Shown one piece after another: positions 37,920 through 64,000 of a stretch of DNA of 64,000 nucleotides (position 1 is its first letter; each line of letters begins with the position of its first letter). The notes below the pieces were generated by a model. That model saw only the letters and a program-made list of their open reading frames with translations, had not been told where the DNA came from and did not search any database. Origin of the DNA: Prostheceraeus crozeri (taxonomy: Eukaryota; Platyhelminthes; Polycladida; Euryleptidae); NCBI GenBank assembly GCA_907163375.1, contig CAJQUW010004442.1:372001-436000 (forward strand), written 5' to 3'. Position numbers and translations under genes: made by a program.

Positions 37920-38107
37920 AAGCAATGACAAAACAAGACACATTACACGAATTTGCAAGAATTTAAGCTAGTAGGAAAAACAATTATTTATTTAAAAACC
38001 TTTAGGAGGTATGACATACCGTTGTAATCTGCAGTGTGATTGATCTTAGGTTGATACTCTTTTATCATTAAAGCTTCTACAACATTTATATGATAATTAC
38101 TGTTGCC
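37920..38107. repeat. Left inverted arm flanking a Penelope-like fragment
   Basis: This 188-bp stretch is essentially the exact reverse complement of 38980-39167, which holds the last codons and 3' flank of the Penelope-like ORF. Inverted partial copies upstream of the main body are a known feature of Penelope-like insertions. The junction to the plus-oriented RT fragment is at 38107/38108. Confidence 0.8.
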
Positions 38108-39099
38108 AATCTCTTCATAGCAGAATTAGAACAAGGTTGGATGGGAGAACAATTTTCGCCCCTGTTCTACTCCAGATATGTAGATGACTGCATATGCGTA
38201 TTTGATAACGTAGACAAAATTCACAAATTCCAAGAGTACCTAAACAGACAACATCCTAACCTAAAATTCACCACTGAAGTGGGCAACAACAAATTACCTT
38301 TCCTAGATGTATTCATTAACACCGAAGAAACTTTACAAACTTCCATTTACCGTAAAGATACGTATACTGGCCTCTTATTAAATTACAATTCCGTTTGCCC
38401 TAGGCAATGGAAAGTTGGACTTATTAATGGGATGTTACATCGAGCATATACAGTATCAAACTGCTGGGAAATGTTTCATAACGAAGTAAAAAACATGACT
38501 AGTATTTTTCAGAAAAATGGCTACCCACGGAGTACAGTAGAAAAATCGTACGTAACTTTCTTAACAAAAAGAATACAGTGATTTCCAACGGGCACAATGA
38601 TACATGTACGAGTACAGCAGATGCACATGTAAACTATACAGTACTACCGTATATTGGTCAACCATCGCTTACATTACGGAATAATTTGATGAAAATATAC
38701 AAAAGATACGGTATCAACTCTAAGATTGTATTCAACACTACGAAAGTAAAATCATACTTCTCTTTGAAATGCAAATCGGGACCTTTGCTGAAGTCTTGTG
38801 TGGTCTATGAATTCACATGCTTGGGTGATCCAAGCAGCCAATATATTGGCAAAACCAAACGAAGACTCCAACAAAGGATCGAAGAGCATAGAAGTACAGA
38901 TACAGCAGTTTACAAACATATCAATACATGTAATCATTGTACGTATGATATAAGTAATCAATTTCGCATAAGGTATAAAGGCAACAGTAATTATCATATA
39001 AATGTTGTAGAAGCTTTAATGATAAAAGAGTATCAACCTAAGATCAATCACACTGCAGATTACAACGGTATGTCATACCTCCTAAAGGTTTTTAAATAA
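38108..39099 (+). pseudogene. Penelope-like element: 5'-truncated RT followed by GIY-YIG endonuclease
   Basis: The RT part (38108-38581) starts within N-L-F-I-A-E-L-E, just after motif B. It keeps the catalytic R-Y-V-D-D-C and the L-P-F-L-D-V block. The frame then shifts near 38578 into a second open frame ending at 39099. That frame holds the linker and a GIY-YIG nuclease: V-V-Y-E-F-T-C, Q-Y-I-G-K-T-K-R-R-L, then E-E-H-R, ending V-V-E-A-L-M-I-K-E-Y-Q-P-K-I-N. The RT fingers and motif A are gone, so the copy is dead. The sequence is otherwise well preserved, which suggests a fairly young insertion. Confidence 0.8.
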
Positions 39100-42539: not shown

Positions 42540-43515
42540 GCAATAGAAATCATTGAGGCAAAAGAAGGTCACTAAAGACAATCAATCGCTGACGCTGAGC
42601 GGAGCACCACGCTCAAACTATATCCCCGTAGCATGCAGGGATATGTTCGGTTCGAGTAACACAATTGTCACTCGCTTGAATGTGTCAGCTTCCTAAAAAT
42701 AATCTCGCTAGATAACGAGATTCTTGAGCGATGACCTGGGAATTCCACAAATCAATGCGATGGGTCTCTTCGCACGTATGCGAAGCAGTGGCTGACTCAT
42801 CGAATTGCCGGCAATTCTTGTGTTTAGTTCGCTGTTTATTTTGCCAATATGATGTTTGTCAGTCATTACGATTGACTTTATACGTACCGTATTTTTTGCG
42901 GACTGGAGAGCAGTTTTTGGGAATAGTAAAAATGTCGGAAAGTTTGGTGGAAGGCCGTCCGTCACATTTTGTACGTAAGGTAGGGTTCCTGTTCGTTCCA
43001 CGTCTACTTCTTATTGGGCATCTTTTCGGGTTTAAAAAAACCATATGTCTAGGATAACCATTTGCCGATAAAACTCTGAATCTCCTTAAACTCCTCATCT
43101 GCGGCTGTGGCGTCTGAGAAATTAGTAGAAACTAAATCAGATAAACTTCTGATCATTGACTTTTTATGAACTGGTGAGTGATGTAGAGAGAAATCAAGAC
43201 ATTCATTAGTGTGAGCATGCTTCGTTTAGCTCTGTATGACACACCATTGTTCGCCACATGTTGAACCATTACGTCAAGAAAAGCCAAGCATCTTCTATCA
43301 CCATCGAACTCCATACTAAAATTGATGAGCGATTCTATAAAATTTATGTAGGCAAAGTAAGATTGCATTTCATCATCCGGAAAAATCACAAACGCATCGT
43401 CTACATGGCGTATCCAAATTCGAACACAGAAATTCAGATTGGCCAGGATACCATTCCTAACGTCATCCAACATTCGATTTTCCACCAAGCTTTCAGACAT
43501 TTTCACCGTTCCCAA
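42540..43515 (-). pseudogene. Decayed Penelope-like element, minus strand
   Basis: At 43153-43515 the minus-strand frame shows R-H-V-D-D-A-F-V-I-F (RT motif C, Y changed to H) followed by A-F-L-D-V-M-V-Q. Further downstream (about 43060-42750) pieces of the linker and a GIY-YIG domain can be traced: K-Y-G-T-Y-K-V-N-R-N-D-C, Y-Y-W-Q-N-K-Q-R-T, then an S-A-T-A block. Several frameshifts are needed. Inactive relic. Confidence 0.5.
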
Positions 43516-45975: not shown

Positions 45976-46980
45976 ATAGGCTAAATGTGTTCAACGCTTT
46001 TGTTTTCCCTGATTTTAGTATACTTTACAATAATAGACAGCTATCAGTGCATCAAACAAGATCCAATTTATTTGTGATAGATGAATCTGTTTATTTGTGC
46101 TACATGCACAATACGTAAAAAATCACTTTGTATCAGATGTTTAAAAATTCACCTTGCTGCTCAACAGTAGTCAATTTACTTGCAGATGGCACATTAGGCC
46201 CCACAGCATGCGAAAATGTAATCAAGAATTGGCTTTTTTGAATGAGTCTTAAGGCGATTGCACTCAACTAGCGTATTTGATACTTTCATTAAGGATGGTA
46301 AATTGCACAAAGCGATAAATTCTATTACCCACGCCCAGATGCAAAATTCATCCGGACCCGGGTCGAAAAGAGCGGCCCGGTTCCAGCTCTGGCTGTGAGT
46401 GACTTAAACGAGGTTGCTCCCTGCATCCTGCATTCGTACAGAGCGTAGTGATTGATGTTGCCGAACCCCCCCCCCCCTCCCACATCCGCACACAACAAGA
46501 GCTTTGGGTCTTCCCACAGCGAAGTGGTTAAAGCACATACATGTAGTGACAGCCTTAAGATATTTCATATTGAAACTTTAATTACCCATGTCGCTTTTTC
46601 TCATTCAATTATTATTTCGATTCTCATTAGATTCATTTAATTTCATCCTATAACTTGACTTCCAGATGAAAACGGTACTAAGTAGCCATTTACACTTTTA
46701 GGAGGTCCAAACACTATATTCAATATGTGTCAGAAATTTTTGGCAATTAGCTGCTTCCACAACCCATTCTTTACACATAGCTTTTCGATATATAATCCGT
46801 ATATTATTCGACTCAATCATTTTTATAAGCATTGTTCTATTCGATTTTGCTAAAATGAGTTTGCATTAGCGCAAATATTGCATGGTCAATATCATATCAA
46901 TCGTCAATCATATCAATACAAATTTGTTTCTACAAAATTTGCTATGGTTGTGGCTCTATAAAAAATTGCCATGGTTCGGA
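45976..46980. other. No recognisable gene; flank of the Polinton
   Basis: About 1 kb between the hAT copy and the inferred Polinton left end. A C(10) homopolymer run occurs near 46467-46478. No coding seen. Confidence 0.4.
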
Positions 46981-47032
46981 AGTAGTAAGCAAAACTCCAC
47001 TTCTGGACCGCGCAAGATGGCGGCCATCGCTG

Positions 47033-47220
47033 CGTCCCCCCCCCCTCTGGCACGGCAGAGTGTCGTGGTCGGCCGCCGTGGTGCTTCGTGTCTGAGTCCC
47101 CCCCCCTCTGGAACGACAGAGGTTGTGGTCTGTCGTGGTGTGCCGGCCAGGTGGGTCCACGTTCACAACATGTTCGCTGACGTCCCCCCCCCTCTGCAAC
47201 GACAGAGTGTGAGACTCGGG
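47033..47220. repeat. Three poly-C / CTCTG-N6-CAGAG direct repeats
   Basis: Starting at about 47033, 47097 and 47183, a run of nine or ten C is followed by CTCTG, six bases and CAGAG. The result is a C-tract next to a 5-bp-stem hairpin. A weaker fourth copy, GTCCCCCCC followed by TGGACAG, starts near 47439. Each copy is preceded by GT. They lie in the left terminal region of the Polinton, where replication-initiation or packaging sites would be expected, but no function is shown. Confidence 0.7.
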
Positions 47221-47227
47221 TGAGTTG

Positions 47228-47286
47228 GTCCGACCGCCTGGTTGACGTGGGCGACCGTCTAGGTTGACGTGGGCGACCGCCAGGAT
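47228..47286. repeat. Tandem GTTGACGTGGGCGACCG repeat
   Basis: The word GTTGACGTGGGCGACCG occurs twice in tandem with a 22-23-bp period, with partial copies (CGACCGCC) at both ends. It contains TGACGT, a CRE-like half site. Part of the same GC-rich left terminal region. Confidence 0.6.
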
Positions 47287-47323
47287 TAGTCTTGAGGCTA
47301 TAGTGTGTGATGTTTTTGGTGTG

Positions 47324-47702
47324 TAGCGTCCAAACGAAGCATCGGATGAGAAAACGGAGGCCAGATTCGGAATCTACGTGAAATTTTGGGTTAGGAAGGA
47401 TGTTTCCAGCGAAATCGGAGACAAAAAATTTTCGGCTGCGTCCCCCCCCTGGACAGCTTGCTTCCAGTGGACGGATTTTGTCGTGCGATAGCTCGTTTGA
47501 AAGCTAAGAGTGAGACAAATTCAGTGAAAGAATCGGCTTGTTCGTATCTGCCTTCGTTTAGATGTGAGACGCCATTTAAGATTTTGGGACATTGGTGAAA
47601 AACGACAGAGTTAGAATTTGGGACGTTTTGGGCTGTAGCTTCAAAACGAACTATCGGATTGGTAAACGGATGCCAGATTTGGAATCAACTTGATGTTATT
47701 GT
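47324..47702. repeat. Pair of about 70-bp direct repeats in the left terminal region
   Basis: The segments near 47324-47395 and 47630-47702 share the order AAACGAA, ATCGGAT, AAACGGA, GCCAGATT and GGAATC. They lie upstream of the first gene's CCAAT/TATA promoter. A diverged inverted piece (AGCTCGTTTGAAAGCTAAG) occurs between them. Non-coding. Confidence 0.5.
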
Positions 47703-47808
47703 CCAATGAGGATCATCATCCAATGAGAATCAAGCATTTCTTTATAAATAGCGAGCCTTCCGCAGTGAGAATCATTCCATCGTTGAATCACACGAGTGAC
47801 GGACGCAC
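47703..47808 (+). promoter_or_regulatory. Promoter and 5'UTR cassette of the leftmost gene
   Basis: Two CCAATGAG boxes (47703-47710, 47720-47727) precede a TATA box TATAAATA (47743-47750). An initiator-like TCATTC follows (47772-47777), its A 31 bp from the first T of the TATA box, the classical spacing. A 25-nt block (47784-47808) beginning TGAATCACAC and ending GACGCAC matches, 22 of 25, the inverted block 63926-63950 in front of the polymerase gene. A CT-rich tract follows both. Confidence 0.75.
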
Positions 47809-47850
47809 ATTTTCTCTCTCTCTAGTTCCCTGTTCTATTATCCAACTAAA

Positions 47851-48626
47851 ATGGTAAGTCGCTACTTCCCTCCCTCTCCTCCCTTGAACGTAAACTTAAT
47901 ACAATCTTTTTTCATTTTCAGGCATCTACTCCATCTGCTGCACTAGTAGGACAAAATGGCGGTCAAACGTTACAAGGTTCGCTACGGTCAGATCATCTAC
48001 AACTGAGGCCAGTGGAAGAAACATCCAAGGTACATAATCCTACACCGCTACAGCGTAAATTTAAACAAGCCTTGCGTTATGATGATCATAGCGTAGTACT
48101 CCAAACGGGAATGCTCCCTTCCACGGATGTCAAGATAATGCACAATCAGTATGGGGACTACATACTGATCCCCGTGAGTCCATACATTCGCCACCAACTT
48201 GATATTATTGAGGAGTACGTGACATTAAATATGGACATTCCTACTCCTCTTGCTCAAGAGTGGAAGGCGAGAGATGACAAGGATACTCCCTATAGAAAGA
48301 TTTGGGATGGTAATCACATTTGCCTACCGGTATCACATTGGTGTACTTACTATAAGAAGGAGGGAGATCATTCAATACCCATCAGATGTGATGAGCTCGG
48401 AGAAGGTACTTGGGATATCCTTTTCAAAGTGAATGGGCTATATTATGGTCGACACAAGGATAATAAAATAGCCTCTCTCTCCATGCATATGGAATCCATC
48501 CTATATATTCCGAAACCACCCAACGTGGACGACATAATTGATCAAATCCTTAACAGCAGTGGTACGAAGCGCAAGTCGGAGAAGAATGCTACATCAAAAC
48601 GCAAATCAAAGAAGGAGAATTGCTAG
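47851..48626 (+). CDS. Leftmost Polinton protein, unknown function, spliced start
   Basis: The gene starts with an exon that is just ATG (47851-47853). It is followed immediately by the donor GTAAGT and a 68-bp intron ending TTTTCATTTTCAG at 47921. Exon 2 (47922-48626) continues in frame as A-S-T-P-S. The product is 235 aa with a flexible, Gln/Gly-rich N-terminus, a mixed alpha/beta-type middle rich in aromatic residues (W-D-G-N-H, P-V-S-H-W-C-T-Y-Y), and a strongly basic Lys/Ser tail (K-R-K-S-E-K ... K-R-K-S-K-K) that looks like a nuclear-localisation or nucleic-acid-binding tail. I recognise no enzyme motif. A DNA-binding role is plausible but unproven. Its promoter and 5' end match those of the polymerase gene at the other end, so the two are probably co-expressed early genes. 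Confidence 0.8.
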
Positions 48627-50198: not shown

Positions 50199-50206
50199 AT
50201 GCAAAT
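50199..50206 (+). promoter_or_regulatory. ATGCAAAT motif, copy 1
   Basis: Octamer-like ATGCAAAT, 39 nt before the ATG at 50245. First of six correctly oriented copies placed just before start codons in this element. Confidence 0.5.
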
Positions 50207-50244: not shown

Positions 50245-50601
50245 ATGGCGAAACGTAAAATGACGAAACGTAAAAGTCAAAAGTTTTCTTCAGCCATTCA
50301 AGCTCTCCGACGAATGAAAGCAAATCAGCGATACAATGCTATACGACATGCTAACGATAAATTCATTTGTGAAATTATTTCTCATGTGAGGAAGTTGAGG
50401 ACGAAGAAATTAGCGCCAAAACAACGAAAGTTACTTAAGCGATATGCTACGAAATTGCGTTTCATCTCCAATCCTAAAGTCGCCCTTCAAAGAAAGAGGA
50501 AAACTCTAACACAAAAGGGCGGTTTCCTTTCAGCAATACTTCCAATGATAGCTCCTGCCGTGGGCAACCTATTGGGAAATATCTTTGGCTCTAAGCGTTA
50601 A
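50245..50601 (+). CDS. Small very basic virion-type protein with hydrophobic tail
   Basis: 118 aa. The first two thirds are Lys/Arg-rich (M-A-K-R-K-M-T-K-R-K-S-Q-K). The end carries L-T-Q-K-G-G-F-L-S-A-I-L-P-M-I-A-P-A-V-G, an amphipathic or hydrophobic helix after a K-G-G-F site. A Gly-Gly followed by a hydrophobic residue resembles processing sites of adenain-type proteases, and a matching protease is encoded at 54984. The arrangement recalls small cleaved core proteins of adenovirus-like particles. A DNA-condensing core or minor virion role is likely but not proven. Confidence 0.65.
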   Translation: MAKRKMTKRKSQKFSSAIQALRRMKANQRYNAIRHANDKFICEIISHVRKLRTKKLAPKQRKLLKRYATKLRFISNPKVALQRKRKTLTQKGGFLSAILPMIAPAVGNLLGNIFGSKR

Positions 50602-50603
50602 TT

Positions 50604-50611
50604 ATGCAAAT
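50604..50611 (+). promoter_or_regulatory. ATGCAAAT motif, copy 2
   Basis: ATGCAAAT, 22 nt before the ATPase start at 50633 and just after the previous stop. Confidence 0.5.
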
Positions 50612-50632: not shown

Positions 50633-51250
50633 ATGGATTTCAGACTTCAATGTGATAAAGTTCTGACTGTATCAGGTCCATCTCATGCAGGTAAAACTGT
50701 TTTCACGCTGAATTTATTGGATAAAAGAAGGGAGTTGTTTAAGGAACCTATCAATCGAGTGATTTGGTGTTATGGTATTTATCAACCGTCGCTGTTTCAG
50801 GAATTGCAAAGTCGCAACTTTATTCGACATGAAGGAATTATTCCAGTGGATAAACTTCAGTCTAATGATGTTGTTGTATTGGATGATTTATTAAAAGAAA
50901 GTAAGAATTCAAAAGATGTTACAGATATGTTCACTCGCGCAGCACACCATAAAAGGTGTTTTATCATCTATATTACACAAAATTTGTTTCCTGATGGAAA
51001 AGAAGCTCGTACACGAAACCTGAATACACACTATTATGCTATTTTCAAGAATCCGCGAGATAAAAGTCAATTTGAAATTTTAGCGCGACAAGTTGCACCC
51101 AGAGGATCAAAAGCCTTAATTGAAATTTTTCAAGCAGCTACTGAAAAACCATACGGTTACTTATTCATTGACTTTACGCAAGAGTGTCCGGAAGAATTTA
51201 GATTTCGAAGTGATATTTTGAAAACTCCCATGATTATCTACAAACTATGA
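50633..51250 (+). CDS. A32/FtsK-HerA-type genome-packaging ATPase
   Basis: 205 aa from the first ATG. Walker A is G15-P-S-H-A-G-K-T22. Walker B is V-V-V-L-D-D at 80-85. The sensor-like I-T-Q-N-L-F is at about 114-119. It is followed by the Polinton-typical N-T-H-Y-Y ... F-K-N-P-R-D block (131-143), A-R-Q (151-153) and P-Y-G-Y-L near the end. These are the conserved marks of Polinton packaging ATPases, which pump DNA into icosahedral particles. The length fits the family. The stop overlaps the next start (ATGA at 51247), so translation units are packed as in a virus. All catalytic motifs look intact. Confidence 0.92.
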   Translation: MDFRLQCDKVLTVSGPSHAGKTVFTLNLLDKRRELFKEPINRVIWCYGIYQPSLFQELQSRNFIRHEGIIPVDKLQSNDVVVLDDLLKESKNSKDVTDMFTRAAHHKRCFIIYITQNLFPDGKEARTRNLNTHYYAIFKNPRDKSQFEILARQVAPRGSKALIEIFQAATEKPYGYLFIDFTQECPEEFRFRSDILKTPMIIYKL

Positions 51251-51940: not shown

Positions 51941-52156
51941 ATGAAGCAGATGTGTTGCTTGCCATGTAATGAGCCGCCAGAGGTGAATGTCGTTGTCACT
52001 TGCACTTGCTGCGCCAGCTCTCATAATGAAACCCCTAAGCAATGTGAACACGATCGCAAAACCGCTAAAGCTAAATGCTGCAGTTGTTGTAAATGTAGAA
52101 AGGCAAGAAAGAAAAAAGATGAGAAGGAGGAAAAAGAGTCAGCCGTCATCGACTGA
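51941..52156 (+). CDS. Cys-rich small ORF overlapping the integrase start
   Basis: 71 codons, two bases after the previous stop. Twelve cysteines, mostly in pairs (C-C-L-P-C, C-T-C-C, C-C-S-C-C-K-C), are followed by a charged Lys/Glu tail. It overlaps the 5' part of the integrase frame. The integrase frame there reads as low-complexity Ala/Val, as expected if the Cys codons are the selected frame. It could bind metal. Function unknown. Confidence 0.5.
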   Translation: MKQMCCLPCNEPPEVNVVVTCTCCASSHNETPKQCEHDRKTAKAKCCSCCKCRKARKKKDEKEEKESAVID

Positions 52157-53207
52157 ACGTTTGAAGTCAATCTATTATGATGTAAAACATCCGGCAGGAT
52201 TTGCATCTATCAAGAAATTATCAAAAGCGAGTGGTCTTCCACAATCACAAGTGAAACGATGGTTAAAGGGTCAGGCTACCTATACACTCCACAAACAAGC
52301 GAAAAAGAAGTACCGCACCCGCCATTATATTGTTCATGACATCGATGAACAGTGGCAAGCAGATTTGTGCGATGTTGCCTCCATTTCAAAACATAACTCG
52401 GGCAATAATTTTATTTTAACCGTCATTGATATTTTCTCGCGTTATGCGTGGGCTCAACCTTTAAAAACTAAAGAAGGGAAAGGAGTAGCAAAAGCATTCC
52501 AAACAATTTTTCGAGAAGGTCGCATTCCAAAAAGAATTCAGAGTGATCAAGGAAAAGAGTTTGAAAATCAGCATGTGACAAGATTATTTGAGAGGCATGA
52601 CATTGAGTTGTTTAGTGTAAAGAGCGCTTATAAAGCTGCACTCGTTGAACGTTTTAATCGCACATTAAAAAATCGTTTGTGGCGACATTTTACTGCCAAC
52701 TTGACACAAAATTGGACAAAGGTTCTACAAGATACACTCCATGCCTACAATCACTCTATCCATCGTTCTATTGGACTCAGACCAGTAGATGTAAATGCTA
52801 ACAATGTAGATAAAGTGCGCGAATCATTCCAACGTAAACGCACTCATGTGAAAAGTGATGTGAAAATTGGCGATAAAGTTCGTATCTCAAAAGTGAAAAG
52901 TGTTTTTGCTAAAGGGTACCTCCCGAATTGGACAGAGGAGGTATTTACAGTATCAAGGATTAATCAAAAAGACTCTCCGACCACCTACAAGTTGAAAGAT
53001 TACGATAATGAAGAAATTGAGGGTAGCTTTTACCGCGATGAGATTGAGGTAGTCACTGAAAGTGAAACATATTTGGTAGAGAAAATCATTCGATGTAAAA
53101 AACGGCAAGGTGAAGAATGGTGTCTTGTTAAATGGACTGGTTATCCTTCAAGTATGAACTCTTGGATGCGTCGTGCCGACATCTTTCATCTAAGTGATCG
53201 ACAGTGA
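52119..53207 (+). CDS. Polinton integrase with C-terminal chromodomain
   Basis: 362 aa from this ATG; an in-frame ATG at 51987 would add 44 low-complexity residues. The catalytic core has W-Q-A-D82, Q-S-D143-Q-G and V-E177-R-F-N-R-T-L-K, the D,D-35-E triad of the retroviral-type integrase fold. The N-terminal S-I-Y-Y-D-V-K-H-P-A-G-F block is typical of Polintons. An SH3-like region (I-G-D-K-V-R-I, about 250-256) precedes a chromodomain at about 317-356 (Y-L-V-E-K-I-I, L-V-K-W-T-G-Y-P, N-S-W). It inserts element DNA into host DNA, and the chromodomain probably steers it to modified histones. Nothing is broken. Confidence 0.92.
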   Translation: MRRRKKSQPSSTERLKSIYYDVKHPAGFASIKKLSKASGLPQSQVKRWLKGQATYTLHKQAKKKYRTRHYIVHDIDEQWQADLCDVASISKHNSGNNFILTVIDIFSRYAWAQPLKTKEGKGVAKAFQTIFREGRIPKRIQSDQGKEFENQHVTRLFERHDIELFSVKSAYKAALVERFNRTLKNRLWRHFTANLTQNWTKVLQDTLHAYNHSIHRSIGLRPVDVNANNVDKVRESFQRKRTHVKSDVKIGDKVRISKVKSVFAKGYLPNWTEEVFTVSRINQKDSPTTYKLKDYDNEEIEGSFYRDEIEVVTESETYLVEKIIRCKKRQGEEWCLVKWTGYPSSMNSWMRRADIFHLSDRQ

Positions 53208-53210
53208 TTC

Positions 53211-53218
53211 ATGCAAAG
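53211..53218 (+). promoter_or_regulatory. ATGCAAAG motif, copy 3
   Basis: ATGCAAAG, 31 nt before the ATG at 53249, directly after the integrase stop. Confidence 0.45.
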
Positions 53219-53248: not shown

Positions 53249-53704
53249 ATGAATCCAACTGCCTCATTTTATTCACGACCCTCCTACGTAAGTGGTGGAG
53301 GACAAATTTACATCGGTGCTCGCCGCCAACGTGGAGGTAGCATACTTGGTGCACTGAAATCTGTTGTAGCACCTCTCATATCCAATGTCGGTAGATCTTT
53401 AAAACGAAATGTTTTAAGTAATGCCGTTGGCTTTGCTGGTGATGTTGCTAGTGATCTTTCCAGAGGTAGAAGTTTCAAGAGCAGTTTGTTGAATCGTGGG
53501 AAGGAACGCGGTTTAAAAACATTGAAGCAGACCATTGCTGGTGTTACTCAAGGAAAGAAATCACCTAAACGAATGAGAAAAGGAAGGAGGAAACATCGCG
53601 GAGCTGGTAAGGTGCAATCTTCAGTCAAAAGGCATTCACGCAAACGTCGCAGAGGCTCTAATCATTCATCAGGCGCTAAACGACGACGCTGCTATAACTT
53701 CTAA
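53249..53704 (+). CDS. Gly/Arg-rich virion-type protein (pVI/core-like)
   Basis: 151 aa. An N-terminal Gly-rich stretch (V-S-G-G-G-Q, R-R-Q-R-G-G-S-I-L) leads into an amphipathic helix region (A-L-K-S-V-V-A-P-L-I) and a strongly basic C-terminus with runs of Lys/Arg. The Q-R-G-G-S-I-L site parallels Q-K-G-G-F-L in the protein at 50245. Polintons usually encode such a protein next to the capsid gene, and by analogy with adenovirus it may be a cleaved, DNA- or membrane-active internal protein. Its stop lies two bases before the capsid ATG. Confidence 0.65.
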   Translation: MNPTASFYSRPSYVSGGGQIYIGARRQRGGSILGALKSVVAPLISNVGRSLKRNVLSNAVGFAGDVASDLSRGRSFKSSLLNRGKERGLKTLKQTIAGVTQGKKSPKRMRKGRRKHRGAGKVQSSVKRHSRKRRRGSNHSSGAKRRRCYNF

Positions 53705-53706
53705 TC

Positions 53707-54984
53707 ATGGAGTGTAAAACTTCCGGTTTTTGTTTGTTCGATCAACAAGCCATACAGACAGATATTCTTAGTTCAAGTATTGTAGATTATCATCCTCGAA
53801 CAGCTGAGAATGCTGGCCCCATTGAATTTGTTATTCCTGGTGGTAGTGATGACTACATAGATTTGAGTTATGCGATGCTTGATTTGAGGTTTAGAATTCA
53901 GCAAGCAGATGGAACTGCTATTGACGATGCACATAAAGTTGGACTGAACAATTTACCATTGACTACATTACTTCGCGATGTTTCTCTAACGATTGGAGAG
54001 CAGCAGGTGGAAGGTGGTCAAAGCGATTATCCCTATAAATCATATTTCACTCATGTATCGCAGTTTCATCCAGCAGCACAAAAAAGTCATATGGAAGCCA
54101 TGGGATGGTACAGAGATGAAGCAGGAAAATTTGATGTTGAAACAAACAGTGGCTTTGTAAAGCGATCTGCTATGATTAAAGATAGTAGAGTATGTCAGCT
54201 ATATGGTCCGCTGAATTTAGACTTCTTTAGACAGTCAAAGTTTTTACTCTGTAATACCAGCATGCGACTCAAGCTGACATTGAATAAGCCTGAATTTGCG
54301 CTGAATGCATTTGCTAAAGTTGACAATTTTAGAATTCATGTGGAAGATATTGCACTTTACATTCGTCGAGTAGTACCGAATCCAAGTGTCATTAGAGGGC
54401 ATGCTGAAGGTCTTAACCACCAAAATGCCATTTACCCCGTTCAGCATACAAAGCTTCTCACCTTTACAATTCCGAAAGATCAAAAGAGTTTCATGAAAGA
54501 TGGCCTCTTTCCATCGGAAGCACCGAAGCTCCTCATGGTGGCAATGGTTGAAAATGATGCATTTAATGGTAATATAAAGAAGAATCCTTTCAATTTTAAA
54601 CACAATCAGTTAAGTGAAATTGCTTTACGTGTTAATGGTGTGAGTCATCCTGGTCCACCCTACAAACCAGATTTTGCTTCGGATCAATTTATGCGCAGTT
54701 ATGTTGATTTTATGGATGTCTTTGGCTTTTACAATACGGATGATACCAACGGACTGACTATGAAAGAGTTTAAGAGTGGATATACTATTTATGCATTTGA
54801 TTTGACTGCTGACAGCGATATTAGTGCACCCTATCGTCAAGCGAACGTGCCTCATAATATTCGTTTGGATTTGACGTTCAAAAGAACACTACCTGAGACG
54901 ATCAATGTATTAATTTATGCAGTCTTCGATTCAAATATTGAAATTACAAAGTATCGTGACGTGATTCTTCAGTATAATCGTTAA
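53707..54984 (+). CDS. Putative double-jelly-roll major capsid protein
   Basis: 425 aa, beta-rich, no signal peptide. It contains P-I-E-F-V-I-P-G (about 36-43), D-D-Y-I-D-L-S near 46-52, a conserved Y-P-Y-K-S-Y-F-T (near 112-119), and alternating beta strands with R-x-x-L-T/L-x-L-T patterns throughout. This family is widespread in invertebrate genomes, often listed as 'F54H12.2-like', and is placed as the Polinton capsid protein by position next to protease and ATPase. It is somewhat shorter than the roughly 500-650 aa of other double-jelly-roll capsids. No break seen. Fold prediction would settle the call. Confidence 0.65.
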   Translation: MECKTSGFCLFDQQAIQTDILSSSIVDYHPRTAENAGPIEFVIPGGSDDYIDLSYAMLDLRFRIQQADGTAIDDAHKVGLNNLPLTTLLRDVSLTIGEQQVEGGQSDYPYKSYFTHVSQFHPAAQKSHMEAMGWYRDEAGKFDVETNSGFVKRSAMIKDSRVCQLYGPLNLDFFRQSKFLLCNTSMRLKLTLNKPEFALNAFAKVDNFRIHVEDIALYIRRVVPNPSVIRGHAEGLNHQNAIYPVQHTKLLTFTIPKDQKSFMKDGLFPSEAPKLLMVAMVENDAFNGNIKKNPFNFKHNQLSEIALRVNGVSHPGPPYKPDFASDQFMRSYVDFMDVFGFYNTDDTNGLTMKEFKSGYTIYAFDLTADSDISAPYRQANVPHNIRLDLTFKRTLPETINVLIYAVFDSNIEITKYRDVILQYNR

Positions 54985-55445
54985 TGAGTTGGTTGACTGC
55001 TGACGATATTAAGACTAAAGTGCAGCATAATGCAGACGAAGCGACGTTGAAAGCTTTCGATAATGTCTATTCACTCGATACCTTACCACCTGCAGTAAAT
55101 CACTATCCCATCTTTATTGTGCTAAACACTCATTCACAGAATTTAGGCGGTGAGCATTGGAAAGCGATCTTTATTGGAAAAGACCGACGTGGTGAACTAT
55201 TTGACTCTCTTGCTCAACCTCCAAATATACCAACACAGCAGTGGTTGAGAAAACATACGCGTCAATATCAGCGAAATGAACGCATACTACAACATCCACT
55301 TTCATCAACGTGTGGTGCTTTTGTACTGTACTTCATCTTAAAACGTTTACATGTATCTCGATTTGCATCTATTATTCAAAACTTTTCATGTAATCCATCC
55401 TCTAATGAAAAAATGATTTGTAAGTTCTATCATGATTTGAAATAA
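54984..55445 (+). CDS. Adenain-type cysteine protease
   Basis: 153 aa, starting on the last base of the capsid stop. The catalytic residues are in the adenain/Ulp1 order: H58-W59 (in G-G-E-H-W), D74 (G-E-L-F-D-S), Q103 and C110 (P-L-S-S-T-C-G-A-F). This family matures virion proteins by cleavage after Gly-Gly-type sites. Likely substrates are the two GG-containing basic proteins at 50245 and 53249. The TAA stop is contained in an AATAAA (55441-55446), probably its polyadenylation signal. Confidence 0.88.
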   Translation: MSWLTADDIKTKVQHNADEATLKAFDNVYSLDTLPPAVNHYPIFIVLNTHSQNLGGEHWKAIFIGKDRRGELFDSLAQPPNIPTQQWLRKHTRQYQRNERILQHPLSSTCGAFVLYFILKRLHVSRFASIIQNFSCNPSSNEKMICKFYHDLK

Positions 55446-55476
55446 AAACATCATGTTGGAAAAATTGTTTTTTATT
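55441..55476. terminator. Facing polyadenylation signals between convergent genes
   Basis: AATAAA at 55441-55446 serves the plus-strand protease. TTTATT at 55471-55476 (AATAAA on the minus strand) overlaps the stop of the TBP-like gene. Only 26 bp separate the two stops, so transcripts ending 10-30 nt after each signal would overlap. Confidence 0.55.
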
Positions 55477-56017
55477 TTACAATCCGCTGGGTACGTACAT
55501 ACTCAATGAGATAGTCTAGGATCATATTTGCTTGTTCATGAGATTTTAGTCCAGTAATGATCACTTTACTATTATGAAAGATTGCCACATGCACAGGCAA
55601 CCAACAACTAATGAGAGCTGCAGGAAAAAGTTCGGGTTCATAACACAAACTGTAACTGCTGGTACGAATCTTCAAAAATGATAGACTGTCACTCAATTGA
55701 GTAGAGATCACCATATTGTCCACAGTCAGATTCGACATCACACACCTCTCCCTCTTCCATATCCGACGTAGTAGTCTTTGTAGCTCTAAGCGCATTGACT
55801 GCGCCGATGAATGAGAAAGGGCGCCGAGAATCTGTACAGTCCCATTTGGGAAGAGTTGAAGATTCCGTGAATTGTTCATCTTCACCACTAACATTTGAGG
55901 ACGGCCCGGGTAATACTTGCTGTTTGGAAGCTGTTGGCGTAATGTTGTGAGATCGATTTTGGTGTAGAGTCTGAAGCGACGGAGAATGTTGACGATGGTG
56001 TAGCGATGGCGCTTCAT
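55472..56017 (-). CDS. TATA-binding protein (TBP)-like protein
   Basis: 181 aa, the size of a bare TBP core, with two repeats. Repeat 1 has K-I-D-L-T-T-L, Y-Y-P-G-R and L-F-P-N-G-T-V-Q-I-L-G-A (about 20-66). Repeat 2 has V-D-N-M-V, S-Y-S-L-C-Y-E-P-E-L-F-P and A-I-F-H-N-S-K-V-I-I-T-G (about 99-156). Y-E-P-E-L-F-P matches the TBP signature. Three of the four DNA-intercalating Phe positions are kept (F56, F131, F147), and the first is Pro40. The minor-groove N-x-V and T of repeat 2 (N101, V103, T155) are kept, while those of repeat 1 are partly changed. The start is the first ATG (56017), since sequence upstream in frame does not look TBP-like. It lies within the tail of the PC4-like frame. A role in promoter recognition for the element is inferred. 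Confidence 0.85.
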   Translation of the reverse strand: MKRHRYTIVNILRRFRLYTKIDLTTLRQQLPNSKYYPGRPQMLVVKMNNSRNLQLFPNGTVQILGALSHSSAQSMRLELQRLLRRIWKRERCVMSNLTVDNMVISTQLSDSLSFLKIRTSSYSLCYEPELFPAALISCWLPVHVAIFHNSKVIITGLKSHEQANMILDYLIEYVRTQRIVK

Positions 56018-56339
56018 GATGAAAGAATGAGTAAATTGAGCGATGTACCTTCCTTTTATACTTTTCCCAACTACCTTGATGAAATGTGAAGTTAGTATGA
56101 AGTTGGGAATGATAGAGTTGAATTCGCCGATTGTTGACGCGCAGCCAGATGCGATTTCCAATACGTGAATGTCTTTTCATATAGAAGTATTTCAAGTCCT
56201 TCATGATATGATGTAGAGATTGAAAATGACGATAAGATAAAACAAACTCTCTTCTCACATTTCCAGTTGAATCTTTGAAATAGACGTTTCGATCATGATC
56301 CGTTTCAATACGTTGTAGGGAATCTAATTTCCAACTCAT
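55689..56339 (-). CDS. PC4-like protein A with long overlapping tail
   Basis: 216 codons, from ATG at 56339. The first ~108 residues are a paralogue of the protein at 56362-56718: L-D-S-L-Q-R-I, a G-N-V block, an L-S-Y-R-H-F-Q-S-L helix, then I-G-N-R-I-W-L, and W-E-K-Y-K-R-K-V-H-R-S-I. The strand-strand-helix pattern with basic residues resembles PC4 (p15) cofactor domains, possibly two in tandem; this is tentative. The remaining ~108 residues (Ser/His-rich, then acidic D-M-E-E-G-E) lie in a different frame over the TBP-like gene and may be a shadow or a genuine dual-coding tail. An ATTTGCAT (minus-strand ATGCAAAT) at 56367-56374 lies 28 nt upstream. Confidence 0.55.
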   Translation of the reverse strand: MSWKLDSLQRIETDHDRNVYFKDSTGNVRREFVLSYRHFQSLHHIMKDLKYFYMKRHSRIGNRIWLRVNNRRIQLYHSQLHTNFTFHQGSWEKYKRKVHRSIYSFFHHEAPSLHHRQHSPSLQTLHQNRSHNITPTASKQQVLPGPSSNVSGEDEQFTESSTLPKWDCTDSRRPFSFIGAVNALRATKTTTSDMEEGEVCDVESDCGQYGDLYSIE

Positions 56340-56361: not shown

Positions 56362-56718
56362 TTAAGATTTGCATAGTAGGGCGATGAACTCACGACGAAT
56401 AAATGTCATGATGGAGCGATGTATGTATCTTCTATACTTCTCCCAATTGTATTTGCGAAATGAGAAACAGTTTGCGGAATGAGAATGGTAGATTTGAATT
56501 TCATTTCTGTAATGTTGAAGCCAAACTTGATCACCCAAGGAGATGAATCTTAATGTTTCAAAATATTCCAAATCCCTCATGATATCATTGAGGTTGACAA
56601 ATTGTCGCCATGTTAATGTAATTCCTCTTGATGTATGACCATGAGAATTTTTGAAATGTACGTTTCCATCACGATCAACTCTGATATATTGTAGAGAGTC
56701 CAAAATCCAAGTCTTCAT
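56362..56718 (-). CDS. PC4-like protein B
   Basis: 118 aa from the ATG at 56718. It shares with protein A the order L-D-S-L-Q, G-N-V-H-F, an L-T-W-R-Q-F-V-N-L-N-D helix, L-G-D-Q-V-W-L, and W-E-K-Y-R-R-Y-I-H-R-S-I-M-T-F-I. It ends soon after this domain, which shows where the domain stops in protein A. The order of a basic strand, a turn and a G-I-T-L-T-x-x-Q-F-x-x-L motif resembles the single-stranded-DNA-binding PC4 fold. It is divergent from the plus-strand gene at 56754 over a 35-bp gap. Confidence 0.5.
   Translation of the reverse strand: MKTWILDSLQYIRVDRDGNVHFKNSHGHTSRGITLTWRQFVNLNDIMRDLEYFETLRFISLGDQVWLQHYRNEIQIYHSHSANCFSFRKYNWEKYRRYIHRSIMTFIRREFIALLCKS
56367..56374 (-). promoter_or_regulatory. 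ATGCAAAT motif, minus strand, copy 4
   Basis: Reads ATTTGCAT on the plus strand, 28 nt before the minus-strand ATG at 56339. It lies in the last codons of PC4-like protein B. Confidence 0.45.
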
Positions 56719-56724
56719 GATGTT

Positions 56725-56732
56725 ATGCAAAG
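56725..56732 (+). promoter_or_regulatory. ATGCAAAG motif, copy 5, in a divergent gap
   Basis: ATGCAAAG in the 35-bp gap between the minus gene start (56718) and the plus gene start (56754), followed by an AATATAAAA run (56746-56754). The same short stretch must serve both directions if each gene has its own promoter. Confidence 0.5.
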
Positions 56733-56753: not shown

Positions 56754-58151
56754 ATGTCGTTTTATCATATTTTGCTTAGCAATGCGGCTACAAAGAGATT
56801 TACTAGCAATCGAGCCGCACTCTTTTCTACTCCCATTGATCATGCACAACAGCTAAATGGGAATTGGGAAGTGGGTGTCACTCAACTTGTTTATAGCAAC
56901 TGTGTCTATACTTTTGATCATGAGGTGTTGACTATTAATATGAGACGTACAGCTGCTTACCAATGTGAAAAGGGGTGCCGAATATACATTCCACAGTGGC
57001 CAAAGAAAGATCTCTTATCATGTAAAAAGTTTATATATGATTTCTTGAATAAAGCGTGTAAACATATTGTCCAATTTACTCCGCACAATGATGATTATAA
57101 TTATGTACATCATGTAGTTGAGAAAGATTGGATTGTTGGTTTAAGTCCAAGTTTAAGAAATGATTTAGGCTACCTCGCTAGCGCCTTAACAAGCTATGAT
57201 AATTTTAACGTTAATTACCACATAAGTGGTCATAAACAGTTAATATATCGAGAGGAAGCTTATTATGTAGATCTTATTCCAAGAAATGAGAAGACGTTGG
57301 TGAAGAAGATTGTGATTAAGCCAAGAAAGACAAACATGACTCCTGAAACATTATTGAAGAAATTTAATTATCTCCTTCGAGTAGATGACAAACAAGTGGC
57401 AACATTGACTTATATTAAATCATCTAATCATATTGCAATAAGCAAATTAAATGATGATGATCTAGTATTAGTTTGTTCAAAAGATTTTCATCAGTTCTTA
57501 CGACATCGTTCTGCAGCTGTTCATGGAAAATCTGATATGCAACATTTACCATGTGAAAGGTCAAATCAATTTGATACAGAATGGGCCGTATCTTTATACA
57601 GAAAGTGTGTAGAGCCTTTTGGTGGTTTCTTACATGAAACAAGAGTGTTGATGCCTCGCATTATTACTTCGGTTAAATTGGTTGTAGATTATTTAAATGA
57701 AGTGATTAATGAGCAACATATTTCATTTTCTGAAAAAGAAGGTACTTTGTCTCTCACTATAAATGGAAAAGGTATTGAACTAATTATGGATAAAACTCTA
57801 ATGGACATTTTGGGTTTTGATCAAAATATCTTTAAAAGTGGTACTGTAACCAAAGCTAGCGCAGACATGTCGCTATCGCGTCGTATTAACTATTTTCAGA
57901 TATATTCCAATATTGGTGAAGATGTACGTGTGGGAGATGTTGAAGCTCCATTGCTAGCAATGATACCATACCAGCCAAAAAGCTGCAGTATTTTATCTGA
58001 GCATACTTTCAAGAAAGTGCATTATACAAAGCTGAAATCAAACTACATCCCACAAATTGATATTGCCATTTATGATGATGCTGGTGCGTTGATTCCTTTT
58101 CATAAAGATGCTGTGACAAGTATTACACTCCATTTCCGAATGAAGAGTTAA
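56754..58151 (+). CDS. Large structural-type protein 1 (paralogue of the next gene)
   Basis: 465 aa from the ATG at 56754. It begins M-S-F-Y-H-I-L-L-S-N-A-A-T-K-R-F, with L-N-G-N-W-E-V-G-V at about 34-42. Later it has F-L-R-H-R-S-A-A-V and I-S-F-S-E-K-E-G-T-L-S-L. The N-terminal 'polypeptide, N-A-x, P-(L/I)-x-L-x-G-x-W-E-V-G-(V/L)' pattern belongs to a protein family seen in many invertebrate Polintons. A minor capsid, vertex or spike role is the best guess from size and position, not from fold evidence. No transmembrane segment or break seen. Confidence 0.6.
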   Translation: MSFYHILLSNAATKRFTSNRAALFSTPIDHAQQLNGNWEVGVTQLVYSNCVYTFDHEVLTINMRRTAAYQCEKGCRIYIPQWPKKDLLSCKKFIYDFLNKACKHIVQFTPHNDDYNYVHHVVEKDWIVGLSPSLRNDLGYLASALTSYDNFNVNYHISGHKQLIYREEAYYVDLIPRNEKTLVKKIVIKPRKTNMTPETLLKKFNYLLRVDDKQVATLTYIKSSNHIAISKLNDDDLVLVCSKDFHQFLRHRSAAVHGKSDMQHLPCERSNQFDTEWAVSLYRKCVEPFGGFLHETRVLMPRIITSVKLVVDYLNEVINEQHISFSEKEGTLSLTINGKGIELIMDKTLMDILGFDQNIFKSGTVTKASADMSLSRRINYFQIYSNIGEDVRVGDVEAPLLAMIPYQPKSCSILSEHTFKKVHYTKLKSNYIPQIDIAIYDDAGALIPFHKDAVTSITLHFRMKS

Positions 58152-58158
58152 TGCAAAA
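58151..58158 (+). promoter_or_regulatory. ATGCAAAA motif, copy 6
   Basis: ATGCAAAA starts on the last base of the previous stop and lies 40 nt before the likely ATG at 58191. It is followed by an AT-rich CTAATATATTTT tract. Confidence 0.45.
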
Positions 58159-59890: not shown

Positions 59891-62800
59891 TTATGTCAAT
59901 ACATCTCCTGAATGTGGTAGCGTGAGTTTTATTCTTTTGGGTGGAGGTATGTTTGTGTCAGGATGTCCATGTGGAAGAGATGTGTTATGTCCTATCCAAC
60001 ACCTCTTATCCTCCCATGCTGAAAGTGCTCGTTTCTTGAACGTGTACGTTTTCACAGTATGAACTTGAGATTTTAAGATTGTCATATTGACAAACGTTAT
60101 AGTTTTATTTTTATAGGCCTTCTTATAGGACCGATGTTTCATTTTATGAACAATGGATTTTGATATACCTTTAGCACGCTTAATACTATCTGCACATTCT
60201 TTTAGTTTCATGGAATACATTTTAGGACGGAGGAGAATCATTTCATCTATTTCCTTTCCTGCTGTTTCATCCTTAAAACAACCAAGTTTGGCTTTATTCT
60301 GTATGGAATAGAGTGGATGAGTGGGATTGTAGTTAGATGTATCGAAATATTTTTCTAATGACTTACCTACTTCATTAAAATTTAAATCTTTTTGAGTGGT
60401 AATTCCTAAAAAGAAACTATCTGTATCACCACCCAGCAAGCGAACCTCTTTTACGAGAGGGCATGGTTTTAATATTTTGTAGAAGAGTTGATACATTTCA
60501 AGCTTGGAATAATCTAAAACGGCTTGCCCAATATAGATGGGTTTGCACAACTCAACTTCTGATTTAATCATTTTAACACCTACAAGATCCTCATCGATGA
60601 TGTCTCTATCAATGAAAAGAGGTGATGAGGTCAATTTGTGATATTTTTGTTCATCAACGACTAGTTTGTAATTCATACGTTTTCTAACATCCTCCATGGT
60701 CTTTCCGAATAGACTATTATTCTTATATTTATAAAAATCCTTTTCAAAATTATTTTGGGCGAGTGCACGTTTTTGACTGTTACTATCTATGTAGGGTTTG
60801 AGGAAGGCTTTCTGTCTAAATTTGATAATGCGGTGAACTGACTTTAGAAGCATGCCCATTTCTAAATAGAATTTTAATATGCAGAAGTGTACGAGATAAT
60901 TTTTCTTATCATATTGGGTGAGTAAAAGTTTGCGGCATGGTTTGTACCTTGGCTGTCCACACTCTGTTAAGTTATTATGAAATTGTGACATGAATGGTGA
61001 AAACATATCTTCAGTCACTTCGCCAGATTCAGGTGCGAGTGGGAAATCAGCAGTTTTATTTTTAATACTATTTGGATAAATCAAATCCACTTCAAAATAA
61101 TATCCCCAATCACCTTCATCTGGAATATTCAGTATGTTTGAAGGGTTGGAGTAATACTCAAGCTCATTTTGATTTAACCAACTAAACTCGGAATGAGGTA
61201 GTGGTTTAGACAGTGAACTGCCATATAAATTATTTTGGTCATAGTACTTTAGGTGGATATGATCATCACCTACTGTTTCAGATTTTATATGATGTTTATT
61301 TACAAATGTGAGACCACCGCGTATTCCGCGCTCAAATATATTATACATCTCCGGGTCTTGTAAGAGATGAATGGTCTCACCAGTCATTTTAAAGGCTGAT
61401 TTAAAGGACATGGCTGGTAGACTGACAAAGTGGATAGGATCTAATTTGTCTTCTTCTAATGCCACTCGTCGAAATTCCTGAAAGACATCAGCCAGCAAAA
61501 TGACATCTAATTCTAAGTAAGCGATCATATAATCGCCAAACGTTTTACAATTAAATTTTAACCATGCCTCTTGAGCATGTTCATAGTCCTCTACTGGACA
61601 ATCTTCACCCGTCAAATCGTTTTTGAATTTGTCAATGGAAGGAAGGGTTGTTTCATTTAGTTTAGACATTGAGCTAAAATACGCATAGGGAAAGACTCCT
61701 TTGCGAGTGATTATTTCATCCGTTAAGTTTGGATAGTGTTTCTTCAAAGTTTGACTATGGGGAAGAAACTTGAGATTACGAACGAGAGAAGCTAGTGACG
61801 CTGACATGAATTGAAATGAATCTAAAAATTTTATTTCGAAGAAGACTGTCTTATTTTCTTTAGTTTTATCTACTGGTACTTTTGCTGTCATTGCCATGAA
61901 TTTTTCTCTCGTTTGTGCTATTACATTAAACTGCCACGATTTCATCTGGCTCAACCCTCCTTTTATGAGCATATGACTGTCATAGCCCTTAAAGTTATGA
62001 AAAATGACGGGTAGTACACGACGTCTCAACCTAAGTGAAAAGTTACATTTGGAGCAGAGTGCGTTTCTAAATTTACCAGTGATGTGATCATGATCACGCA
62101 CTTTCTTAATTTTATCGTCATCAAACGTTTTATGACATTTAGGACAGGATGTGCAACTTTCAAATTTTTGTTTGTCTTCATCTGACATATGTAGTGACTT
62201 ACGCTGCAATTGGGAATCATATGATTGTTGAAATTTTGCAGCTTTATCGAGAAATTCTAGAAATTTTGAAATGCAATCTTCACCTTGCCAAGTATGCATT
62301 TTGTTTTGTCTATTCCTAAAGTGGTCATGCCATACTTCATAGCAGGATATGGCTGCTGGCTTGTGGATGATATCATCAATGTAGCATTCTATGTCTGCGT
62401 AAATGACACGCAGGGGACTTAATTCGTCACCATTATCCCTATGTGAAAATATTTTATCTTTGGGCATGCGTTCCATTTGTAATTTACCTCGCTTGCACCA
62501 TTCATAGTGAGTTTCAAATTTATCTTTACTCCAAAATGAGCGGATGCAGCGGTCGCATACAAAATGTTCACCTCTTTTAGAGTGCCCCAAGTGAGTGTAC
62601 AAGCGAGAGATTTTGGGAATACCACAGTAGTGCCATTCCTCGCTATCATCTTGTTTTACTAATAAGAGGTTGACTACACGTTCATAACAAGTTGAACGTG
62701 AATTATAGCGGGCACCCTTCAACCCCTTCTCCCACACGTGAACGACAATTTTAATCTTATTATGTTTTTCGAACGTTTCTACATCTTTGATTTTCATGTT

Positions 62801-63848
62801 GTTACTATCACAACCTTCAAAGTCTAGTTCATCCTCCCACTGTCTATAGCTATAGGTGCGATCTCGATGCGCGTTGATATCATTATAGTGAAGGATGGAT
62901 AGGACTGCATATTTAAAAACACTGTGATTTACAATCAACATTGATGACAGCTTTCTTATTATACAACGTTTTTGGAAGTTTAAATGTGCCTCGAGCTGCA
63001 TGACTTTCTAATAGGGAAATTTTGAATATGGCTGAGTCCACACCATCAAAAATGAGAGCGCTGTCGCGTTGATTGAATTTAAACATTGAATGTGAAAATT
63101 TAGCCAAGACTCGCAGTCTACAACTTCGGTTGCGGAAGAGGAAGGAATATGAAACTGTATTCTCTCCGTCACTTGACCCGTTTGAAAATCTATTTTAATA
63201 TATTTTAGTTTAAGGTAGATGAGCGCCTTCATTCTAAAATTGTCTAAATTATTGAAGAGCGCTTCGATAATGTTAGAATTTTGAAGGAGCCACTCAGGAA
63301 AATCTACAATTTGAGTATTGGACTCCATGCAGTAGTCGCGTACTAAATTATTATGTGAAACATTAATGAGGGAGATGGTAGAGGTACCGTTGGTGTAGTG
63401 ATCATTTGCATGCGTGTGTTGAAGTCTGTGCGAAGATCGCTGAAAGTGACTATCAAAAGAAAGAGGGCACAAATCGCAAGGAAAGGAGATGTCATCGTCA
63501 GAATCAACTTCACCTCCGGAGATTGACGCCGCTTTGCGTTGACACACACGTTGTTTGATGTGTCGAAGGAGACTGTGCTTCCTTGTAAACATATGTCCGC
63601 AGTCGGCACATTCCCACTCGTTGCCTTGCCGCGAGAGTCCTGAGCTGGAACTCACATCACCTGAAAGAGAAATCATTCTTTCATCTCTGTTCAAGCCTCA
63701 GTGTAGTGTTACAACCTACCTTGACTCAATAACTCTAAACTTTCCTCGAGAAGAGAGGGCGTTGGTGATGAAGTTGATGCCTGAAATTGAGGAAGATGCT
63801 ATTAGTCACACGTTTGAGGGAGATGAGAGGAAATTTTCAACTTACCAT
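59891..63848 (-). CDS. Protein-primed DNA polymerase B, three-exon 5' end, two frameshifts
   Basis: The start is an ATG-only exon (63846-63848) followed by GTAAGT. Introns 63781-63845 (65 bp) and 63661-63719 (59 bp) keep the frame across exon 2 (63720-63780). The N-terminus carries a C2H2 finger (C-A-D-C-G-H-M-F ... H-I-K-Q-R-V-C) and a second, partial one (C-D-L-C ... H-x4-H). The main open segment (63001 downward) has a Cys/His finger, exonuclease motifs D203-I-E205, N-F-K-G-Y-D (336-341) and Y-x3-D499, and an H-N-H-like C-P-K-C block. Polymerase motifs are D588-x-N-N-L-Y-G, K-N-N-S-L-F-G-K (760-767) and G-D859-T-D861-S. A TAG at 63008-63010 and two compensating shifts (about 63060-63085 and the A5/T5 run 62915-62919) interrupt the coding. 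Otherwise complete. Confidence 0.9.
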
Positions 63849-63991
63849 TTCAACGAAATCAAGTTTAAGGTTGATACTTCTACAAGATAGAGACTTCACT
63901 CAAATAATAGTCAAAGAGAGAGATCGTGCGTTCGTCACTTGTATGATTCACAGATTAAATGAAATGACCTGAATGTCACTTTGCTTATATA
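63846..63991 (-). promoter_or_regulatory. Promoter and 5'UTR cassette of the polymerase gene
   Basis: On the minus strand a TATATAAG box (63991-63984) is followed by an initiator-like TCATTT (63967-63962). Then come the 25-nt block 63950-63926 (22 of 25 identical to 47784-47808), a CT-rich TCTCTCTCTTT tract and the ATG at 63848. The order and content mirror the leftmost gene's promoter. More distal elements (CCAAT boxes) would lie beyond the window. Confidence 0.75.
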
Positions 63992-64000
63992 CTTTCATCC

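Follow-up and report, generated by a model that had tools for sequence, protein, structure and literature searches.

What is a gene for a TATA-binding protein (TBP) doing inside a Polinton, a Maverick-type endogenous DNA virus? The question is raised by a 64,000-nucleotide stretch of DNA from the flatworm Prostheceraeus crozeri (contig CAJQUW010004442.1, positions 372,001 to 436,000; the whole stretch analysed is called the window below), in which an earlier note, made from the sequence alone, had proposed that a Polinton encodes its own TBP-like transcription factor at 55472-56017 on the minus strand. We regard it as near certain that this interval encodes a complete two-repeat TBP, and the element that carries it is, judged by its integrase, its protease, its PolB motifs and its terminal inverted repeats (TIRs), a Polinton. 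The reading that we favour, and to which we would grant slightly less than an even chance, is that this is an early gene for a TBP of altered specificity that would open promoters containing TGCAAA.

The open reading frame (ORF) is intact, with an ATG, 181 codons and then a stop. Its first ATG yields exactly a TBP core, in line with the claim that the product lacks an N-terminal extension; the mechanically defined ORF can be extended to a TTG at 56161, but the extension runs over an upstream ORF. Pfam matched PF00352 (TBP) in two stretches of the protein (E 7.6e-21; 74.2 bits against a curated cut-off of 22.9 bits), bearing out the proposal that it spans both TBP repeats. With phmmer, 35 distinct TBP-containing sequences of the PDB were matched (E 2.8e-14 to 3.9e-8), and the remaining 2 of the 37 rows at E<=10 were TonB (E 1.6-1.7). 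The AlphaFold model of the 181 amino acids (aa) shows the saddle fold with a predicted local distance difference test score (pLDDT) of 94.7, and a fold search of the PDB with this model, which the earlier note had suggested as a check, ranked TBP-containing entries first, all 44 matches at E<=1e-3 being such entries. Because these Pfam and PDB E-values are joined by 60 listed database homologues, each with a TBP domain, a chance match can be excluded. The YEPELFP signature read by eye is indeed there, at residues 126-132. The F-x-x-G-x-x-x-T-G segments that the earlier note had called conserved hold for repeat 2 (FHNSKVIITG) and fail for repeat 1 (FPNGTVQILG), where 48 of the 54 family members have Leu in place of the lost threonine (T124 of yeast TBP). 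The gene also lies where it had been placed, amid Polinton genes and 26 nt from the stop of the protease gene (55445): the two genes stand tail to tail with AATAAA at the stop on each strand, a putative poly(A) signal overlapping the TBP stop codon at 55471-55476 (minus) and another for the protease gene at 55441 (plus).

Since TBP is a host gene family, could the gene be a recent copy of the host's TBP, or else a host gene that was exapted and has nothing to do with the element? The window protein is distant from both human and yeast TBP: its identity is 21.7% with human TBP and 28% with the TBP of M. jannaschii, and identities between three family members and four reference TBPs are 18-28%, whereas human and yeast TBP are 81% identical to each other. 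At least 60 database relatives (the best 60 of 99 candidates) are 34-81% identical to it in local alignments, and all 60 carry a TBP domain. We aligned the window protein with 53 of these 60 (P0005, P0041, P0042, P0044, P0046, P0052 and P0061 were excluded), and in a maximum-likelihood tree of 60 rows the resulting 54 family members are separated by a 100/100 branch from 6 other TBPs: those of human, yeast, E. cuniculi and M. jannaschii, and two from IMG/VR, whose identity with human TBP is about 50%, which came from a scan with ordinary TBPs and served solely as tree references. With its long branches and few references, this tree does not place the origin of the family in a host, archaeal or other viral TBP; it does group the 53 relatives with the window protein. 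The low identity to human TBP set against the human-yeast value, the diverged family and the 100/100 branch together speak against a recent host copy, as does a position inside the element, 26 nt from the protease gene. On these comparisons a host origin of that kind is practically refuted, and the copied-mRNA explanation that the note had held open is contradicted.

The surfaces of the protein bear on what it might do. With residues numbered by alignment to yeast TBP, N159, V161, F116, F207, T215, G216 and E188 are kept in all 54 members, E186 and F190 in 53, L189 in 48, and N69 in all 49 members that have a residue there (5 have gaps). Three of the four DNA-kinking phenylalanines are retained (F116, F190 and F207); the fourth, F99, is Pro in 53 members and Gln in one. 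L114 is replaced by Gln in 51 members, V122 by Gln and V203 by His in all 54, I194 by Leu in all 54, and L205 by Ala, Thr or Ser in all 54. The combination associated with canonical TATA reading, four phenylalanines and a hydrophobic minor-groove face, is thus not found in this family. The stirrup that contacts TFIIB (E186, E188 and L189) is conserved, from which we infer that the protein could dock TFIIB. A conserved stirrup next to a remodelled N-terminal repeat would also suit a decoy, that is, a protein that sequesters host TFIIB or host promoters and shuts down host transcription. Against such a decoy stand the DNA-contacting Asn, Phe and Thr that nearly all members retain, and it would leave the ATGCAAA set described below unexplained; we consider it improbable.

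Two classes of motif lie ahead of the genes of the element. The first, TATA followed by TCATT, is found at both genes that start in the TIRs and at the TBP gene, where TATAAAAG, a putative early core promoter (56053-56060, minus), lies 43 nt upstream of the ATG and inside the U1 coding frame (U1 being the ORF upstream of TBP), with an initiator-like TCATTC (56025-56030, minus) 30 nt on from where the TATA begins. The second class emerged when the 50 nt ahead of 20 ORF starts (mechanical ORFs, all of at least 80 aa) were scanned for k-mers; the top ones were ATGCAA, in 7 of the 20, and ATGCAAA, in 6. ATGCAAA has nine copies in the element, six of them ahead of genes, and is 29-46 nt from the ATG except at a 516-aa ORF. 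On the plus strand it is found, as a putative late promoter, at 50199-50205 (46 nt upstream of the ATG of a pX-like gene), and further at 50604-50610 (29 nt upstream of the putative ATPase ATG), 53211-53217 (38 nt upstream of the ATG at 53249 of a small basic ORF), 56725-56731 (29 nt upstream of the ATG at 56754 of a 465-aa ORF) and 58151-58157 (ahead of the 516-aa ORF, 10 nt from its first ATG and 40 nt from its second); on the minus strand it lies at 56368-56374, 35 nt ahead of the ATG of U1.

Taking the residues and the motifs together, we propose the following scheme. Host TFIID would first transcribe the genes with TATA and TCATT, namely the two that start in the TIRs and the TBP gene. 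The viral TBP would then bind the minor groove of TGCAAA-type boxes, which lie at about the position of a TATA box before six other genes. Its three retained phenylalanines would kink the DNA, while the changes to Gln, Gln, His and small residues on its DNA face may permit G:C pairs that a normal TBP rejects. The intact C-terminal stirrup would dock host TFIIB, and host RNA polymerase II would thereby be brought to the TGCAAA genes, presumably late. The wider claim, that a lineage of animal Polintons has a natural TBP reading TGCAAA and not TATAAA and runs an early-to-late switch with host polymerase II and TFIIB, is a conceivable one that we think somewhat less likely than not.

Several points weigh against this scheme. 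The link to TGCAAA comes from a single element. None of 500 random placements per k reached such an enrichment of a 6-mer or 7-mer, but the placements were made anywhere in the element and were not matched to the base make-up of gene starts. Three of the nine ATGCAAA copies are not ahead of a gene; three of the six genes with the motif look virion-related, on weak evidence, and the motif is absent before the putative major capsid, protease, integrase and PolB ORFs, so that it is not a mark of all virion genes. If ATGCAAA acted at -30, the spacing of 29 nt at two ATGs, or of 10 nt, would imply nearly leaderless transcripts. TATA-TCATT pairs, counted with loose spacing, number 7 in the 64 kb, 5 of them within the element, where about 2 would be expected over this length and a set of 60 simulations gave as many as 6. 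The TATA of the TBP gene also codes for part of U1 and may therefore be a coding coincidence; by eye, 9 of 12 homologues with at least 17 residues up to the start of the core have Ile-Lys at the offset at which the window has TATAAA, and as a conserved TATA box and a conserved U1 frame are inseparable here, we do not use this as proof. V161 and T215 are kept, unlike in the herpesvirus TBP mimic ORF24 discussed at the end, so that the likeness to it is partial. The best match in a fold search of the viral BFVD database, A0A5P9U4S6, has 189 aa, 20% identity and E 7.3e-12; a similar bare-core viral TBP is therefore already present there.

A further counterpoint suggests a different division of labour: ATGCAAAT is also the octamer recognised by host POU factors. 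A POU-domain host factor could then read ATGCAAA(T), and the viral TBP would be a general booster acting on ordinary TATA boxes, those of the TIRs and of its own promoter. Canonical TATA boxes are indeed present in both TIRs and ahead of the TBP gene, and the Asn, Phe, Val161 and Thr215 with which repeat 2 holds TATA are retained. Yet a TATA binder would hardly need Gln, Gln and His at hydrophobic DNA-facing sites (in 51-54 of the 54 members) or the loss of F99 (in all 54), and ATGCAAA lies at core-promoter distance from most ATGs. We think this explanation unlikely, if by no means far-fetched, and continue to prefer a TBP of altered specificity acting on TGCAAA boxes.

The TIRs, which are imperfect, raise a further alternative. 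The inner part of the left TIR (47743-47935, plus) contains TATAAATA with TCATTC 29 nt on, and the gene that starts there has its ATG at 47851, followed directly by a putative intron of 68 nt (GTAAGT...TTTCAG). The right TIR (63767-64000, minus), cut by the window end, contains TATATAAG (63991) with TCATTT 24 and 29 nt on; its gene has an ATG at 63848, again with a putative GTAAGT...TTTCAG intron directly behind it, here 65 nt long. With TATA-like sites in both TIRs, the TBP fold might bend the DNA of the ends and aid protein-primed replication or integration. We know of no precedent for such a role, and the sites look like promoters because initiator-like, ATG and splice-site sequences lie downstream of them; a DNA-end or replication factor therefore seems to us very improbable. 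As separate observations, the two gene starts mirror one another in their order of TATA, TCATT, ATG and splice donor; the left spliced frame joins the ORF at 48012 in frame, and the right one leads toward an ORF for a C2H2 zinc-finger protein (63008-63694, minus), at the right end of the element and upstream of PolB, for which a second intron may be needed.

Upstream of the TBP gene are two related ORFs, U1 (216 aa; 55689-56339, minus), which at its 3' end shares 329 nt with the TBP gene in another frame, and its paralogue U2 (118 aa, 43% identical; 56365-56718, minus). A JGI protein, P0122, comprises the full 216-aa U1 frame (99% identity across the 125 aa that were searched), and its contig of 10,296 bp gave no TBP match among the matches listed. 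This choice of the U1 frame suggests that gene callers may drop TBP owing to the overlap. A resemblance of U1 and U2 to PC4- or PUR-like transcription proteins was not borne out by any Pfam match above cut-off. Their model, built from 4 sequences, has a pLDDT of 56.5, and a fold search with it returned nothing at E<=1e-3, PUR-alpha being among the weak rows (E 0.34). At this low confidence the model suggests two strand-strand-strand-helix repeats.

The Polinton measures at least 16 kb; the right TIR runs past the window end, and the element is therefore somewhat longer. It encodes a retroviral-type integrase with a chromodomain (51987-53207, plus; Pfam rve E 1.8e-10, Chromo E 6.6e-7) and an adenovirus-type, Ulp1-like cysteine protease (54984-55445, plus), convergent with TBP. 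The protease matched Peptidase_C48 just below cut-off (E 6.6e-4; 20.0 against 20.7 bits) and Peptidase_C5 at E 0.048; H58 and C110 are invariant in 33 aligned sequences, made up of the window's protease and 32 of the 60 homologues listed, and PF00770 or PF02902 is carried by 4 of the best 60 of 65 homologues. A 1036-aa ORF (59891-63001, minus) appears to be a PolB of the protein-primed type from motifs read by eye (exonuclease, NNLYG and GDTDS), and Pfam gave no match to PolB at E<=0.1; an Endonuclease_7 (endonuclease VII) domain is inserted at its residues 263-321 (E 8.5e-7). Position and size point to a putative major capsid protein at 53707-54984 (plus; no Pfam match), and position to a perhaps minor virion gene in the small basic ORF at 53249-53704 (plus), which ATGCAAA precedes. 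A putative packaging ATPase (50633-51250, plus) has a Walker A motif, GPSHAGKT, by eye and a weak match to Pox_A32 (E 0.022, below cut-off), and the small basic pX-like protein (50245-50601, plus) matched Adeno_PX, also below cut-off (E 0.0024). Among 19 ORFs of the element scanned with Pfam, none matched an RNA polymerase. Outside the element, poly-C-rich direct repeats cluster just to its left (46455-47449), two adjoining ORFs at 38090-39099 look by eye like a piece of a Penelope-type reverse transcriptase and a GIY-YIG endonuclease, and further reverse-transcriptase-like pieces lie at 15274-16152 and 43153-43515; these Penelope-type ORFs are the ground on which we speak of an animal lineage of Polintons.

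Do other Polintons carry the gene? Four of the 60 listed TBP matches (the best 60 of 99) sit on contigs of the same size as those of listed protease matches (the best 60 of 65), namely 5702, 1649, 2052 and 1771 bp; in a control with sizes jittered by up to 15%, the mean was 0.62 coincidences, and four or more arose in 0.4% of trials. There is good evidence for the 5702-bp pair, with identities of 69% for both proteins, and fair evidence for the 1649- and 2052-bp pairs, whose identities are similar; the 1771-bp pair, with discordant identities of 81% and 41%, is probably a chance coincidence. These contigs (5702, 1649 and 2052 bp) support linkage of TBP and protease in a few relatives. Broad co-occurrence is another matter: only 2 of 30 near-full-length protease matches of at least 67% identity (P0062-P0091; two more of that identity cover just 70%) coincide with a TBP match, and none of the 8 TBP contigs of at least 10 kb coincides with a protease match. 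Genuine patchiness of TBP among Polintons is possible. No relative was found in viral contigs scanned with TBP, with the TBP and protease alignments, with PolB and with a 33-nt promoter stretch, nor in genome contigs scanned with the protease alignment, both sets being ones from which records near the window may be omitted.

TBP-like folds are known from many DNA viruses. The literature that we searched, in which most subscription papers lay out of reach, contained no description of a TBP encoded by a Polinton, and its accessible part, mainly on virophages and giant viruses, gave no account of Polinton gene control. An element of about 16 kb with a basal transcription factor would show that small endogenous viruses can supply their own promoter specificity. 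If our reading is true, it adds a further viral TBP with a polar DNA face, makes the idea of an altered-specificity TBP, so far embodied in TGTAAA mutants, testable in nature, and offers a compact orthogonal pair of TBP and promoter; the promoter motif would help to tell early from late genes in other Polintons. The protein would then be a one-protein counterpart of the six-protein complex of beta- and gammaherpesviruses, working through overlapping DNA-facing positions of the saddle.

How does this system compare with known ones? With Polinton/Maverick and adintovirus elements it shares the integrase, adenovirus-type protease, PolB motifs, pX-like protein and TIRs. Like cellular and archaeal TBPs, the protein has the two-repeat saddle, the core length, N69 and N159, F116, F190 and F207, V161, T215 and the TFIIB stirrup; unlike them, its family has Pro at 99, Gln at 114 and 122, His at 203 and Leu at 124 in 48-54 of its 54 members. 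The residues changed in the TGTAAA mutants are presumably 194, 203 and 205; all three differ from yeast TBP in 54 of 54 members, and the proposed TGCAAA box, like TGTAAA, has G as its second base. The family described here differs in being natural, in having Leu, His and Ala, Thr or Ser at these sites and in its altered N-terminal repeat. As far as the available portions of two articles tell, the engineered TBPs have three changes in the second repeat and read TGTAAA (PMC10005294, PMC2731028). Word searches of the available text of three papers on Polinton/Maverick and adintovirus elements (PMC11071308, PMC11071296 and PMC8097293) returned no mention of TATA, nor of TBP in the two in which it was sought.

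Among viral proteins, the BFVD fold search gave 48 matches at E<=1e-3, of 186-1252 aa, with 6-20% identity and TM-scores of 0.41-0.74. Those with a name come, among others, from Heterosigma akashiwo virus and Terrestrivirus, from iridescent viruses and ascoviruses, and from an asfa-like virus (a homologue of B263R); giant viruses, in some of which the earlier note knew of TBP homologues, are thus represented. The accessible parts of two further articles report TBP in 59% of mirusviruses (PMC10132985) and, in a green alga, in elements putatively derived from mirusviruses (PMC10675990). A functional parallel may be ORF24 of Kaposi's sarcoma-associated herpesvirus, which the available sections of PMC12529657 describe as a TBP mimic that serves non-TATA (TATT) late promoters with host RNA polymerase II. 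According to these sections, ORF24 is a multidomain protein of 752 aa with a C-terminal domain and an Rpb1-binding N-terminus; it has Ser, Asn, Asn and Ser/Gly at 114, 122, 124 and 205, keeps F99, alters V161 and T215 and is without the TFIIB glutamates (PMC12529657). BcRF1 of Epstein-Barr virus and UL87 of human cytomegalovirus are, according to abstracts of other papers, further late TBP mimics of gamma- and betaherpesviruses. As far as the description of ORF24 goes, it and the Polinton protein both depart from TBP at positions 114, 122, 124 and 205, each with polar residues at 114 and 122 and a small one at 205; the Polinton TBP differs as a bare 181-aa core that has lost F99 and kept V161, T215, E186 (53 of 54) and E188 (54 of 54). 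Herpesviruses belong to a different virus realm from Polintons. By this analogy the Polinton TBP perhaps functions like a herpesvirus TBP mimic, not being a member of that group; on the residues described, the two groups of viruses have therefore changed overlapping positions of the saddle and kept different partner surfaces.
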